Below, piece by piece: positions 21,945 to 28,292 of a stretch of 49,441 bases of DNA. The position numbers were made by a program, and so were the translations under genes. Source of the stretch: a virus. The notes under the pieces are model-generated. The model searched no databases. It was not told where the DNA came from and saw only the letters and a list, made by a program, of their open reading frames with translations. Positions within the stretch are counted from its first letter, which is position 1. Each line of letters begins with the position of its first letter. The stretch lies in the IMG/VR virus record IMGVR_UViG_3300037193_001025, positions 1-49,441 of that record, one strand, 5' to 3'.

Positions 21945-22138
21945 CCGGCATCGAGCGCGCGATCCAGGCCCTGGGCGGGCAGGCGGCGCTGGCGGCGGCG
22001 TGCGGCGTGACGCAGCCGGCGGTCAGCCGCTGGGTGCGACAGGGCTACGTGCCGCGCCGGCGCTGGACGCTGGTCGCCTACGCGACGGGCGTCGGAGTCG
22101 AGGACTTGGCTTTAGACATGGCTCGGGGAGGGAAGTGA
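21941..22138 (+). CDS. Cro/YdaS-like helix-turn-helix protein
   Basis: This encodes 65 residues. The HTH is clear: IERAIQALGGQAALAAACGV, then TQPAVSRWVRQGYVPRRR, the pattern of YdaS/Cro-type proteins. Phage YdaS/Cro proteins repress or switch early promoters. The divergent early promoter core at 21328-21353 is the obvious target. No partner CI-like repressor or integrase is present, so a lytic timing role is more likely than lysogeny control. Confidence 0.8.
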   Translation: MTGIERAIQALGGQAALAAACGVTQPAVSRWVRQGYVPRRRWTLVAYATGVGVEDLALDMARGGK

Positions 22139-22968
22139 TGGATCGCCACACATACATTTGCTTCAATAGTGGGGGCAACGACAGTATTGCGGTTCTACAA
22201 TACATGGTATCAAACGAGCTTCCGCAGAAAGCGCAGGTCTTCAGCTTGTATACCAACACCGGTTGGGCCGCAGAATACTGGCCCGAACGCATGCAACGCG
22301 TAGCCGCGTGGTGCGAAGAGCGGGGCATACAGCATGTAGAAATTGCTACTAAAGGTTTCGAACAACTGGTGCTCGACGGCGACGCGGGTACGATCCGCTT
22401 CCCGAACGGGATGCGCAAGACCTGCACAGAGCGTTTGAAAATTCTCCCGGCTGCGCGGTGGATGGACACGGTTGATCCTGACCGTGTCGCCATTTGCGTG
22501 CTTGGTGTTCGGCGTAGCGAGAGCCGGCGGCGCATGCACACACCGGTTTTTGAGGCGTCATCGGTAAACCACGGTGGGCGCGCCTTGTGGAAACCTCTCG
22601 CCGAGTACAGCGACGCTCAGCGCGATGCGATGCTTGCGGCGGCCGGCTTTGACCCACTACCGCACCGGTCTGACGAGTGCGAGGTGTGCATCCACGCCAA
22701 CCGTACGGATTTGCGTCGCGTGTCCGAGCGTGGCGTGGCGCGCGTGCGTGTGCTGGAAGCTGCCACCGGTAAGACGATGTTCCGACCAAAGGCGTACGCC
22801 GGCGCGGTGGGGATCGATGAAGTGCTGCGGTGGGCGCACAGCGAACGCGGAAAATTTGTCCCGGCGACGCCCATGCCTGACGCAGAACCCGAGCCTTTCG
22901 AAGACGCGTGCGAAGAAGGTTTCTGCGAAGCTCCGTCCCCCGACTTCGACTACGCGAGCCTTGCATGA
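22138..22968 (+). CDS. PAPS-reductase-like PP-loop protein
   Basis: This encodes 276 residues, starting at a TGATG junction. The PP-loop SGGNDS (11-16) within ICFNSGGNDSIAVLQYM marks the adenine-nucleotide alpha-hydrolase superfamily (PAPS reductase, DndC, tRNA thiolases). FSLYTNTGWAAEYWPERM, then RKTCTERLKI and a CEVC pair with WKPL fit phage PAPS-reductase-like proteins. It probably adenylates a substrate, perhaps to modify DNA or tRNA or to move sulfur; the substrate is unknown. The 5' half is AT-richer than its surroundings. Confidence 0.82.
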   Translation: MDRHTYICFNSGGNDSIAVLQYMVSNELPQKAQVFSLYTNTGWAAEYWPERMQRVAAWCEERGIQHVEIATKGFEQLVLDGDAGTIRFPNGMRKTCTERLKILPAARWMDTVDPDRVAICVLGVRRSESRRRMHTPVFEASSVNHGGRALWKPLAEYSDAQRDAMLAAAGFDPLPHRSDECEVCIHANRTDLRRVSERGVARVRVLEAATGKTMFRPKAYAGAVGIDEVLRWAHSERGKFVPATPMPDAEPEPFEDACEEGFCEAPSPDFDYASLA

Positions 22969-25241
22969 GCACGAACGTCGTCCCGCTGCGCCCGGTGTAT
23001 GGCGCGAGCCCCGAGGACTGGAGCCACCTGGAGATGGTGGTGGGCCACGCCGACTTGCTGCCGGTGGTGTCGAACCCGAACGCGGTGATCAGCGAGGACA
23101 GTACGCTGAAGGCCCTGGGCAAGACGCCCAGCGTCTACAACCGCAACCGGCGGGTGGTGGGCCTGCCGAAATGGACAGCCAAGCAAAGCACGGCGGCCGA
23201 GGTCGCCGCCTGGAGCCGGGAGCCCGACTATGGAATTTGCATTCAGACCCGACGCGTGCGCGGGCTTGACATTGATATCGCCGATCCCGGATTGGCACAG
23301 GAGCTTGAAGACGCTTGGACTAGAGCGTTGGCGGTTCAATGCCCTGCCCGAGTACGCCCAGCCACTGGCAAGCGGCTGCTGGCCTTCGAACTGGTCGGCG
23401 AATTCACCAAGCGGAGCTTCAAGGTCGAAGGCGGCCTCGTCGAATTCTTGGCTGGCGGTCAACAGTTCGTCGCGCTTGGAGCCCACACCAGCGGTCAGCG
23501 CTACGAGTGGCCCGGAGGTCTCCCTGATGCGTTCCCGGCAGTCAGCCAGCGAGATTTCGAGGCGGCGTGGGCTGTTCTGGTCGACCAGTTCGCGCTAGCG
23601 CCCGCCACGGAAGGCGCGGAGGGTGCGGACCGCAGCCGGGCCGATCTGGACGGTGTGCAGGACGAAGTTGCCGCCTACCTGGAGGAGCACGGGTTGGCCC
23701 TGGGCCATCAGGGCGAGAAGCTGTTCGTGGCCTGCCCATGGAAGGACGGGCACACCTCCGACAGCGGCATCTCCGAGAGCGCTTGGCTTGTCGCCGGGAC
23801 CAGGGGTTTCGAGCGTGGACATTACCAGTGCATGCACGCTTCCTGCCAGGGGCGCACCGATGAGCAGTTCCTCGATGCGGTCGGCTACCGGGTGTCGGCG
23901 TTCAGGAACCTGGATGAAGCCGGCGACGCGCAGACTGGAGGGAATGACGTCGCCGGCCCCGCGCAAACCACTCAGGAAACGCCCTCACGGGACCTGTTCA
24001 ACGTAACAGACCCGTGGCCGCGCCTCAAGCGCGACGGAACCGGGCGGATCGAGGCGGTGATCGAGAACGTCGAGGCGGCCTTGGCCCGGCCCGACATGTG
24101 CAAGGCGATCCTGCGGTTCGACACCTTCCGCGACGAGCTGATGATCCAGTGGGAGGGCGACGCAGCGCCGCGCCCGATCACGGATGCGGACGGTGTCGCG
24201 CTGCGCGTGGAACTGGCCGGGCGCGGCTTCAAGCCGGTGGGGCGCGAGCTGATCCGCGACGCCCTGCTGCTCCAGGCGCGCGACAACCAGTTCGACAGTG
24301 CCCAGGAGTGGCTGGCGTCGCTGCCGGCGTGGGATGGGGTCGAGCGGGTCGAGACGTCGTGCTCGACGTTCTTCGCGGTCGAGGACACGCCCTATAGCCG
24401 GGCGGTGGGGCGCTACCTCTGGACGGCGCTCGCCGGCCGGGTGATGGACCCCGGCTGCAAGGCCGACATGGCGCTGGTGCTCCAGGGCGCGCAAGGGATC
24501 AGGAAGTCGACCGCCGTCGCGGCGCTGGCCCCGATGCGCGAGATGTTCCGCGAGGTGTCGCTGCATGCCCTCGACGCGGACCTGTCGCGGAAGCTCAGGG
24601 GCTGTGTGGTCGCCGAGATGGCCGAGCTGCGCGGACTCAGGGGCCGGGAGAGCGAGGCGATCAAGGCCTGGATCGCGCAGCGCGAAGAGCGCTGGGTTCC
24701 GAAGTGGCAGGAGCGCGAGACGGCGTTCCAGCGCCGGTGCGTCCTCATCGGCACGTCGAACCCGCAAGGCATCCTCGACGACGAGACCGGCGAGCGCCGG
24801 TGGCTGCCGGTGGCCTGCCTGGGCCGGCTGGACGTCGAGGGGCTGGAGGCCGTCCGCGAGCAGCTCTGGGCCGAAGGGCTCTGGCGGTGGCGACTGATGG
24901 GCGTGGAGTGGCAGGACGCCGAGCGTCTGGCCGGCGGCGAGCACGTCAAATTCAAGGTCCGCGACGAGCGCTGCGCGGTGGTCGAGCGGTGGCTTCAGAT
25001 GCCCGCTGACGTGTCGGGTATTACGTGGGAAGAGCGTGGCTGGGTGCTGCTGGCGGACGTCGCGGACGGCGCTCTGGGGGTGCGCGGGCAAGGCCTTACC
25101 ATCCCTTACCAGCGGGACTTGGGAAAAGTGCTACGGACGCTCGGGTGGGAGCCCGGCACGAAAAAGGACGACGGACGTGTGTTCCATGCCTGGATCAAGC
25201 GAAAGGTAAGGGATGGTAAGGCCTCGGTAATGGATGGGTAA
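22965..25241 (+). CDS. Primase-helicase: prim-pol domain plus VapE-type helicase
   Basis: This encodes 758 residues from the ATG at 22965 (ATGA overlap). The N-terminal ~250 residues look like a bifunctional primase-polymerase fold (YGICIQTRRVRGLDIDIADP with the acidic pair, then VEFLAGGQQFVALGAHTSG). A middle Cys/His part (CPWKDGHTSD, HYQCMHASCQG) may bind zinc. The C-terminal half is a virulence-associated E (VapE) helicase: Walker A GAQGIRKST (508-516), then LSRKLRGCVVAEMAELRG, RRCVLIGTSNPQGILDDETG and RRWLPV. It should prime and unwind DNA for the family A polymerase. The 3' end carries the first iterons of the candidate origin. Confidence 0.9.
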   Translation: MSTNVVPLRPVYGASPEDWSHLEMVVGHADLLPVVSNPNAVISEDSTLKALGKTPSVYNRNRRVVGLPKWTAKQSTAAEVAAWSREPDYGICIQTRRVRGLDIDIADPGLAQELEDAWTRALAVQCPARVRPATGKRLLAFELVGEFTKRSFKVEGGLVEFLAGGQQFVALGAHTSGQRYEWPGGLPDAFPAVSQRDFEAAWAVLVDQFALAPATEGAEGADRSRADLDGVQDEVAAYLEEHGLALGHQGEKLFVACPWKDGHTSDSGISESAWLVAGTRGFERGHYQCMHASCQGRTDEQFLDAVGYRVSAFRNLDEAGDAQTGGNDVAGPAQTTQETPSRDLFNVTDPWPRLKRDGTGRIEAVIENVEAALARPDMCKAILRFDTFRDELMIQWEGDAAPRPITDADGVALRVELAGRGFKPVGRELIRDALLLQARDNQFDSAQEWLASLPAWDGVERVETSCSTFFAVEDTPYSRAVGRYLWTALAGRVMDPGCKADMALVLQGAQGIRKSTAVAALAPMREMFREVSLHALDADLSRKLRGCVVAEMAELRGLRGRESEAIKAWIAQREERWVPKWQERETAFQRRCVLIGTSNPQGILDDETGERRWLPVACLGRLDVEGLEAVREQLWAEGLWRWRLMGVEWQDAERLAGGEHVKFKVRDERCAVVERWLQMPADVSGITWEERGWVLLADVADGALGVRGQGLTIPYQRDLGKVLRTLGWEPGTKKDDGRVFHAWIKRKVRDGKASVMDG

Positions 25242-25368
25242 GGCCTAATTTTCTCAATAAAATCAGAATGGTAAGGTGAGTAAGGTCTATTTTCCTATTG
25301 TGGGTTGAAAATAAAAAGAAAAAACACTCAGGGGAAACAATAGGGATTTTTAGGCCTTACCCCTTACC
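25094..25368. repeat. GGTAAGG iteron cluster, candidate replication origin
   Basis: Eight exact copies of GGTAAGG occur in 275 bases. Plus-strand copies start at 25205, 25215, 25237 and 25270; inverted copies start at 25094, 25104, 25355 and 25362. Near-copies are at 25226 and 25279. Neighbouring copies are mostly 10-11 bases apart, one helical turn. They surround the most AT-rich stretch of the genome (about 25247-25350), next to the primase-helicase gene. Iterons on the same helix face plus an AT-rich unwinding element form a typical origin. The gap 25242-25449 holds no gene. Confidence 0.7.
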
Positions 25369-25392
25369 TCGAAATTGTAATACGGCTGGCGC

Positions 25393-25444
25393 TTGACCCG
25401 GCGATGCAACGGTGATACCGATACGAACGTCAAGTTTGGAGGAC
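25393..25444 (+). promoter_or_regulatory. Promoter and leader for the 25450 operon
   Basis: TTGACC (25393-25398), a 17-base spacer and TACCGA (25416-25421) are followed after seven bases by GTCAAGTTTGGAGGAC (25429-25444). This is the same geometry and the same leader as the leftward early promoter. Confidence 0.6.
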
Positions 25445-25449
25445 ATGAC

Positions 25450-25710
25450 ATGCGCTACGCCGCTTCCCAACTGAACCAGGAATGGGCTCCGAACCAAGCC
25501 GACGCCGAACCCAGCGTCGAAGACATGATCGAGCGCGCCAAGGCGAAGGGCTACACGCGTCCGGTCTTCGCGACGGGCGACGGGTACGATCTCGAATTGT
25601 GGGTGAAGCCCGATGTCGACCTGGACGGTACGTTCCGCGCCTACGACGAGGACGAAGACGAGTGGGTGAAAGTGAACGGCTGGCTCTTCGTGATCGAGGA
25701 CCGCGACTAG
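25450..25710 (+). CDS. Acidic hypothetical protein
   Basis: This encodes 86 residues. Residues 1-40 are helical (VEDMIERAKAKGYTRPVF), followed by a beta-rich, strongly acidic half (YDLELWVKPDVDLDGTFRA, then DEDEDEWVKVNGWLFVIED). The start is the ATG after TTTGGAGGAC. A small acidic early protein could be a DNA mimic or an inhibitor, but this is a guess. Confidence 0.65.
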   Translation: MRYAASQLNQEWAPNQADAEPSVEDMIERAKAKGYTRPVFATGDGYDLELWVKPDVDLDGTFRAYDEDEDEWVKVNGWLFVIEDRD

Positions 25711-25784
25711 CTCTGCGGCAAGGGCTCGACTACGGTCCAGCCCTCACCGCAGCGCTAGGCTGCTGTTCAGAGGAAACCAAACCA

Positions 25785-26777
25785 ATGCGTGTCTACATGC
25801 TCGCGCTGCTCGCCAGCGCTGCGCTCGCCGGGAGCGCCTACGCGACGCCCGGCAACAACGGAGGCGGCCAGGGCGGCTGCGGCGTCGGCCAGCAGACGAA
25901 CGGCTGCGGTGGCCAGGGTGGCGCTGGGGGCCAGGGCGGTCAGGGCGGCGACGCCCAGGCGCAAGCCGGCGCGGTGGGCGTCGGGATCGGCGTCGGCATC
26001 GGTCAGGGCGGCGACGCCAAGGCCCAGGCGGGCGCGAGCGCCACCAACACCCTGATCGCGCCGATCTCGAACGACGTGCGCAACACGAACACCAACGTGA
26101 ACGGGCAGGACCAAGGGCAACTGCAAGGGCAGCTCCAGGGCCAGCAGCAAGGGCAGGTCGCCCAGGGCGGCGCTGGCGGGGCCGGCGGCTCAGCGTCGTC
26201 CGACCAGGACCAGAGCCAGGGGCAGAGCCAGTCGAACGACGTGCGCAACGCCCAGGGCCAGACGCAGTCGGCCGCGTCGGACCAGCGCCAGGGGCAGAGC
26301 CTCGACAGCGACATCAGCGCCGTGGGCTCGGGCAACGAGACCGTCGTCGACATCGACGCCTCGGATCGCAGCGTCACGACCTACGAGGCGCAGAAGCGCA
26401 ACCCTGTGGCGAGCGCTTACGCAGCACCACTCTCGATTGGTGGTGGCGTGTGCGCCTACACGCCGGTCAGCGCCGCCGGCCAAGGCCTGACCATCGGCCT
26501 GTCGGGTAGCGTCGCCAAGATCGACAAGGGCTGCGAGACACGCGCCACCGCCGACATGTTCGCGCGGATGGGGCTCGGCTACGAGGCCTGCCTGATCATG
26601 GTGAGCCAGGACGCCGCCGTGCGCGTCGGGCTGAGCAACGAGGCGTGCCTGCGTCTGCTGCCGGTCGTGGCAGCTATCGCCCCGCCCTCGCCGCAACCCG
26701 CGCCGCACGTCCCCGCGACGATGCTGCCGATCCCCGACCCGGTGCTGCCGAAGCACGACGGCGAACGCGGTCGCTGA
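25785..26777 (+). CDS. Secreted Gly/Gln-rich repeat protein
   Basis: This encodes 330 residues. A Sec signal peptide (MRVYMLALLASAALAGSAYA) is followed by a low-complexity domain of GG, GQ and QGQ repeats (about 21-170) with two related SNDVRN blocks. The C-terminal domain has KRNPVASAYAAPLSI and conserved-looking Cys residues (GGGVCAYT, KGCETRAT, YEACLIM, NEACLRL). Similar secreted proteins with a Q/G-rich stretch and a terminal KNPVxSAY-type domain occur in other phages with unknown function. Its early position, away from virion genes, argues for action in the infected cell envelope. RBS is AGAGGAAA. Confidence 0.8.
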   Translation: MRVYMLALLASAALAGSAYATPGNNGGGQGGCGVGQQTNGCGGQGGAGGQGGQGGDAQAQAGAVGVGIGVGIGQGGDAKAQAGASATNTLIAPISNDVRNTNTNVNGQDQGQLQGQLQGQQQGQVAQGGAGGAGGSASSDQDQSQGQSQSNDVRNAQGQTQSAASDQRQGQSLDSDISAVGSGNETVVDIDASDRSVTTYEAQKRNPVASAYAAPLSIGGGVCAYTPVSAAGQGLTIGLSGSVAKIDKGCETRATADMFARMGLGYEACLIMVSQDAAVRVGLSNEACLRLLPVVAAIAPPSPQPAPHVPATMLPIPDPVLPKHDGERGR

Positions 26778-27725: not shown

Positions 27726-28292
27726 ATGAACGCCGTAGCACCAATCGAAGATAGTCCCGAAAGTGGTCCACTTAGTGGACTGTCTTTTCAGCAAGAAGCC
27801 TTCGTGCTCGCCTTCATGGCGAATGGCGGAAAGGCCCAGGCCGCTGCAGCAGAGGCCGGCTACGCCCATGTGCACGTCACTGGCTATAAGCTCCTAGCGA
27901 ACAAGAAGATCGCGGCAGCAGTTGATGCACTACGTGCTGAGCGTAGAGCTGAGATTGACATGGCTCTGCGTGAGAAACACTTCAGCAAGGACAAGGTGCT
28001 TGCTGATTTGTGCGAGATGGCGGGCTTCGATCTTGGCGAGTTGCTTGACGAACGCGGCATCATCGACCGCTCAAAGCTTAAGGCGCACGCCAAACAACTT
28101 GGATCGGTCGAGATCGATGGCGCGAAGACTAAGATTAAAGCGCCTGACCGGCTGAAGGCCTACGGGATGCTCGCGGACCTGATGGGCTGGACGGCCCAGG
28201 CTCGGCAGACGAACCAGATCAACGTCCAGGTGAACGTAGGTTTTGCTGAGCGCATGGCGGCGCGGCGCAACCGTGCATTGGAGGACAGATGA
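27726..28292 (+). CDS. terS: Terminase small subunit
   Basis: This encodes 188 residues. The N-terminal HTH part (LSFQQEAFVLAFMANGGKAQ, then AAAEAGYAHVHVTGYKLLAN, IAAAVDALRAER) matches the Terminase_2 small subunit family. The C-terminal half has an oligomerisation region and a RQTNQINVQVNVGF segment. It recognises phage DNA and directs the large subunit. It lies three genes before the large subunit, with a candidate small RNA and a terminator hairpin between them. Confidence 0.85.
   Translation: MNAVAPIEDSPESGPLSGLSFQQEAFVLAFMANGGKAQAAAAEAGYAHVHVTGYKLLANKKIAAAVDALRAERRAEIDMALREKHFSKDKVLADLCEMAGFDLGELLDERGIIDRSKLKAHAKQLGSVEIDGAKTKIKAPDRLKAYGMLADLMGWTAQARQTNQINVQVNVGFAERMAARRNRALEDR

Follow-up and report, generated by a model that had tools for sequence, protein, structure and literature searches.

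A probable iteron origin of replication at the 3' end of a VapE-type primase-helicase gene in a phage genome

The iteron region at the 3' end of the primase-helicase gene is very probably the replication origin of this phage, an origin of the SaPI/PICI type with a VapE initiator that would load itself. Three lines of evidence argue for this reading: where the repeats lie, the layout conserved in relatives, and the way wing residues vary together with iteron bases. They lend strong comparative support to the initial annotation, which had suggested, from the sequence alone, an iteron origin recognised by the Prim-Pol/VapE protein. The annotation called this origin phage-specific, which is right for the iteron word, since it differs between elements. 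The origin type itself is common to VapE elements generally and is already known from SaPI/PICI islands. What is new is that such an origin occurs in this phage and extends to full-size phages and plasmids, that residues and bases co-vary as a code, and that this phage carries an atypical variant. We do not claim priority for these points; within our partial coverage of the literature, no published description of such an origin in VapE phages was found. For this phage the analysis predicts both an origin and its initiator, and the same rule serves many VapE phages, satellites and plasmids.

Results

The repeat cluster

The heptamer GGTAAGG occurs 10 times in the record, that is, the whole 49,441-bp stretch analysed, while 1.68 copies are expected and none of 100 shuffles reaches 10. 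Eight of the ten copies, four per strand, fall within 25094-25368, as the initial annotation had counted, and the cluster is unique in the record. It is the strongest 7-mer cluster of the record, the runner-up reaching 5 copies per 300-bp stretch. Two near-copies, GGTAATG at 25226-25232 (+) and AGTAAGG at 25279-25285 (+), complete the set. With these included, the start-to-start spacings are 10 / 101 / 10, 11, 11, 33, 9 / 76 / 7; an earlier description of most copies as 10-11 bp apart thus holds for some steps (10, 10, 11, 11) and not for the others (101, 33, 9, 76, 7).

The repeat search also reveals two features absent from the initial annotation. One is a perfect 20-bp inverted repeat. Its left arm (25091-25110, minus strand) carries two iterons, 25094-25100 and 25104-25110, within recognition-helix codons, and its right arm (25205-25224, plus strand) carries two more, 25205-25211 and 25215-25221, in codons past the wing. 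The other is the stop codon TAA of the primase-helicase gene (25239-25241), which lies inside the iteron at 25237-25243 (+). The overlap with coding sequence had been noticed for some copies; we find four exact iterons wholly within the gene and a fifth holding the stop codon. Further downstream, the plus-strand iteron 25270-25276 and the near-copy at 25279, 9 bp apart as in relatives, form the left flank of the core (25270-25285), and two minus-strand iterons (25355-25361 and 25362-25368) form the right flank. The AT-rich stretch 25245-25354 (GC 0.318, no strand) is a candidate unwinding element; it is broken by the iterons at 25270 and 25279, and the core between the opposed arms spans 25286-25354. 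The AT-rich gap had been singled out as unusual for this GC-rich genome, and indeed the 70 bp from 25246 have the lowest GC of the record (0.286; next lowest 0.40, mean 0.664).

The cumulative GC skew, a check proposed with the origin, has its minimum near 20 kb, where gene orientation also switches, and does not single out the iteron site. Neither a credible known RNA family nor a credible terminator was found in the region. A single strand of it folds far better than shuffled sequences (z -5.9), which is an automatic consequence of the inverted iterons.

The primase-helicase and its C-terminal domain

The primase-helicase gene (22965-25241, plus strand, with a possible alternative start at 22908) encodes a Prim-Pol domain (PF09250), a VapE-like AAA+ domain and a winged-helix C-terminal domain. 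The PF05272 match in the Pfam scan (E 6.8e-53) places the protein in the VapE/PriRep AAA+ family, and its sole PDB sequence match is 7PDS, PriRep1 of SaPI1. An AlphaFold2 model of residues 339-758, made with 76 loci, reaches a pLDDT of 92.4 (36.9 for a single-sequence prediction), and its nearest fold is again 7PDS, a structure with dsDNA (E 1e-26, TM-score 0.70). In this model the last ~80 residues form the winged helix. The codons of this domain, the predicted iteron reader by model and co-variation, lie at 24966-25199 (+, residues 668-745). They include those of the recognition helix, located by alignment and model at 25101-25139 (+, residues 713-725), and those of the wing hairpin at 25146-25199 (+, residues 728-745), with strands 728-735 and 738-745. 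The top co-varying columns fall in the wing.

A PAPS-reductase-like gene (22135-22968) lies immediately upstream of the primase-helicase gene. On the other side, an ORF at 25482-26777 (+), read from the Met of MRVYMLALL, encodes a Gly/Gln-rich repetitive protein (GGQGG, QGQLQGQ) with an apparent N-terminal signal peptide (MRVYMLALLASAALAGSAYA).

Conserved layout in relatives

A tblastn search with the primase-helicase detects relatives in phages and plasmids, and profile searches add 159 further loci. Scanning viral and genome contigs with one protein at a time yielded no relative, and in a megablast comparison of 20-44 kb with phages no near relative appeared. The first ten relatives fetched have short opposed repeats around an AT-rich stretch 3' of the gene, with several different words; two Caulobacter phages among them have three exact 8-mer copies only. 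In 95 of 165 loci the 8-mer repeat at the VapE 3' end tops all other windows of its own locus. At least five copies of one 8-mer are found at 88 of 134 VapE 3' ends, compared with 9 of 1,201 other ORF ends; this set of 134 is the group up to L141, mostly proteobacterial, and about one third of it falls below the five-copy threshold.

The more distant Firmicutes loci of the profile search show nothing clear by the 8-mer copy measure. By eye, VapE 3' repeats are seen in an S. aureus phage (GATGCAAC, 7 copies), a Streptococcus satellite (GGCTACAC, 6 copies), a Paenibacillus phage (CTGCAACA, 9 copies) and a Corynebacterium phage (GGAACAAC, 6 copies). The same inspection took in a second Streptococcus satellite, where the repeat picture is ambiguous, and a Bacteroides phage and ctHz2215, which have neither a gap nor repeats 3' of VapE. 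Since the four elements with repeats (L291, L292, L293 and L295) carry 6-9 copies of a short inverted repeat past VapE, the origin type reaches Gram-positive elements.

The core is resolved in 90 loci. About 48 distinct iteron consensus strings, this phage included and with register errors possible in a few, follow the family form TGTAACCACC, of which C6 is nearly invariant. Across these 48 words the copies keep fixed offsets and opposed orientation across the AT-rich core. Relative to the last left copy, same-strand copies in the 90 loci lie at -9 (75), -18 (33), -73/-74 (49) and -83/-84 (32); on the opposite strand they lie near -50 to -56 and +68 to +92. Copies start within coding sequence in 50 of the 90 loci and fall on the stop codon in 21. 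Counted from 25279, the copies of this phage lie at 0, -9, -42, -53, -64, -74, +76 and +83, close to the family grid; two further copies, at -175 and -185, form the extra pair.

VapE and a comparable iteron region also occur together on two circular plasmids (12.9 and 14.7 kb). A Pfam scan of most of their other proteins found no other initiator family in either, and a weak Toprim match in one. Two VapE elements with different words, CTAGACCACC and TGGAACCACC, have contig names sharing the genome id 2837389702 (L049 and L078); this is what one would predict if co-resident elements needed different words, and it is one pair only. Caulobacter phages BL94 and Jess A (L003, L004) have VapE and Bordetella phage BPP-1 (L301) has D5_N/PriCT_2, and all three are filed under Rauchvirus. 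The occurrence of different replication helicases among Rauchvirus members suggests module exchange.

The word itself is a poor guide to this origin type: only 1 of 119 viral loci with clustered GGTAAGG triples adjoins a VapE gene, so GGTAAGG alone is not diagnostic. Most of these clusters in viral contigs are direct-repeat arrays, some apparently coding Gly/Lys repeats. Arrays in both orientations were also seen beside other replication helicase or primase families (L174, L215, L197 and L246), which are DUF927 with a Cch helix-turn-helix, AAA_25 with a weak Toprim match, DUF3987 and Prim-Pol/PriCT. This suggests that the arrangement came about, or was spread, together with unrelated initiators as well. 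L177, L180, L182, L195 and many similar viral contigs share a recurrent direct-repeat element, ACAGGTAAGGTTAGGTAAGGATAGGTTAGGTAAGG, which is not near VapE by profile.

Co-variation of iterons and wing residues

The iteron sequence follows the winged-helix C-terminal domain to a degree that the AAA+ domain does not explain. The more two C-terminal domains differ, the more their iterons differ, also with AAA+ distance controlled (partial r 0.373, p 0.0005); for AAA+ distance itself the partial correlation is negative. When 334 protein columns are scored against iteron positions 2, 3, 4 and 7, the top six all fall in the wing, and the placement of the top five in helix or wing has a hypergeometric p of 2e-6. 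Specific residues go with specific bases: Arg at column 507 with G2 (59/59), Lys at 516 with C7 (33/33; Arg there mostly with A7) and Gln or Leu at 501 with A4 (43/44). Column 514 pairs Val or Met with T3 (29/29), Lys with G3 (10/11) and Gln with A3 (14/17). Because such counts are not independent of one another, the test used pairs separated on the AAA+ domain tree, which give 10:0 for R507-G2 (p 0.002), 8:0 for K/W516-C7 (p 0.008) and 6-7:0 for Q514-A3 (p about 0.03). The columns were picked after the scan, so these pairs test independence and are not blind. For K514-G3, M486-C9, R/K502-C10 and F518-A7 there are too few changes on the AAA+ tree for significance.

In a test that left out similar sequences, 81% of iteron bases were predicted by the code and 74% by the majority base, with the largest gain at positions 4 and 7. 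Natural variation reads as a protein-DNA recognition code, by which iteron words are partly predictable from protein sequence. If domain and origin were exchanged together as a cassette, part of the correlation could stem from this, but such exchange alone would not focus the signal in the wing. The co-variation in relatives supports the view that the C-terminal domain reads the iterons, with this phage an atypical case.

An atypical helix and iteron

Every listed relative of the code set has Arg at alignment column 487 in the recognition helix, and this phage has Asp718. Its iterons are similarly unusual. Read as GGTAAGG, they keep the family polarity and lack the near-invariant C6. Read as CCTTACC, they match the consensus better (+5.1 vs -5.5 bits; a random iteron does as well in 1.2% of draws) and also fit the wing code and the L105 iteron (CCTTACCACC) better; their arms then face away from the AT-rich core, unlike those of relatives. 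Converging polarity fits better in 87 of 91 rows. This phage is by far the strongest of the four exceptions; in L110 the core is misassigned, and L152 and L009 are weak. Under neither reading does the phage have both the consensus and the polarity of its family, which are features of the relatives and stand outside the published PICI definition. It has either lost the invariant iteron C or reversed the iteron polarity. The exact converging double pair of this record occurs in no contig found.

To be noted, the extra pair at 25094-25110 falls exactly where the recognition helix begins and encodes LTIPYQ, unlike the K/R-R-E-E type sequence usual at this point in relatives. Templated copying of 25205-25224 over the helix start is a hypothesis that would account for the oddities of helix and iteron alike.

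Discussion

Several other functions may be considered for the region. A packaging site (pac or cos) bound by the small terminase would suit the small terminase gene ~2.4 kb downstream, at 27726, and Caulobacter phage BL94, in which a single small gene separates the region from terS. We regard it as very improbable, because the same layout occurs without a terminase among the annotated neighbours in pE76_003, APSE phages and VapE plasmids, and because the iterons co-vary with the primase-helicase wing. Hardly more credible is a transcriptional operator array, serving a Cro/CI-type repressor or autoregulation of the replication gene. The repeats occupy the 3' end of a gene, some of them within it, and a scan for sigma-70-like promoters, the only type it covered, gave no credible one in 24900-25700. 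Furthermore, both the AT-rich core and the offsets are maintained in relatives, and the word changes together with the primase-helicase. In favour of an operator, short spaced inverted sites look operator-like and there is a Cro-like gene upstream, at about 21.9-22.1 kb.

An origin recognised by its secondary structure instead of its iteron sequence has a precedent in pRN1, whose origin needs a stem-loop 3' of the Prim-Pol/SF3 helicase gene (PMC4234260), and the folding z-score given above would agree with it. That fold follows from the inverted iterons, however, and no long stem-loop free of iterons is present here; tandem same-strand copies at 9-bp steps and base-by-residue co-variation indicate a reading of duplex sequence, which leaves the stem-loop very unlikely. 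Bordetella phage BIP-1 is a stem-loop parallel (PMC4234260); the near-identical BPP-1 has a D5_N/PriCT_2 helicase instead of VapE and so provides no test of a VapE origin. On comparative evidence, the terminase, operator and stem-loop readings account less well for the distribution and the co-variation than an origin does. Least probable of all is chance or a functionless coding repeat. Despite the four exact copies wholly in coding sequence, the fifth on the stop codon and the plain, sometimes apparently coding, direct repeats that GGTAAGG triples often form elsewhere, none of 3,000 simulated 300-bp stretches holds 8 copies, copies outside the gene lie on both strands, and the same layout in relatives contradicts this explanation.

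On the origin reading, the winged-helix C-terminal domain of the VapE-type primase-helicase would bind the 7-bp iterons, and hexamers would assemble on the arms next to the AT-rich segment. The strands would melt at this segment, the AAA+ ring would load itself as helicase, and the Prim-Pol domain would prime synthesis.

A wider proposal we hold tentatively, at a little less than an even chance. VapE initiators and their origins may form a widespread lock-and-key system that extends over phages, satellites and plasmids. A few residues of the wing would specify the word through a readable code, and the words would switch often, perhaps preventing cross-initiation between co-resident elements; in this phage an iteron pair would have been copied over the helix start, removing the invariant Arg and altering the iteron or its polarity. 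Which VapE elements can share a cell could be a matter of their differing words.

Comparison with known origins

Iteron plasmid origins of the RepA/RepE type similarly combine iterons and an AT-rich segment beside the initiator gene. Their initiators are not helicases and rely on host DnaB loading, whereas here the initiator itself is an AAA+ helicase and the arms flank both sides of the core. In phage P4, the alpha protein, as described in PMC4234260, unites primase, helicase and winged-helix iteron binding, although its primase is of the Toprim type; the likeness concerns the protein. ORF904 of pRN1 has Prim-Pol, an SF3-type helicase and a winged helix in one protein and an origin downstream of its gene, but the feature recognised is a stem-loop without iterons (PMC4234260). 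SCCmec Cch2 with its putative origin (PMC7581432) is also alike, as the C-terminal domain of this self-loading helicase binds direct repeats just 3' of the gene; it belongs to another helicase family (D5-like), and there are three iterons only.

The closest parallel is the rep-ori of SaPIs and PICIs (SaPI1 PriRep1, 7PDS; EcCICFT073), with a VapE-type AAA+ initiator, a C-terminal winged helix and an origin directly 3'. The C-terminal domain of SaPI Rep recognises iterons directly downstream of its own gene (PMC7581432), and PICI rep-ori segments replicate autonomously (PMC6092414). The position is the same here, with iterons at 25094-25368 around the stop codon at 25239-25241. The present element is not a PICI island, a small helper-dependent satellite, as the 49-kb record has large and small terminase genes. 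It differs in being a full-size tailed-phage genome, in its fused Prim-Pol and in iterons extending into the gene. Compared with the VapE relatives examined here, this phage departs in its iteron or in its polarity.
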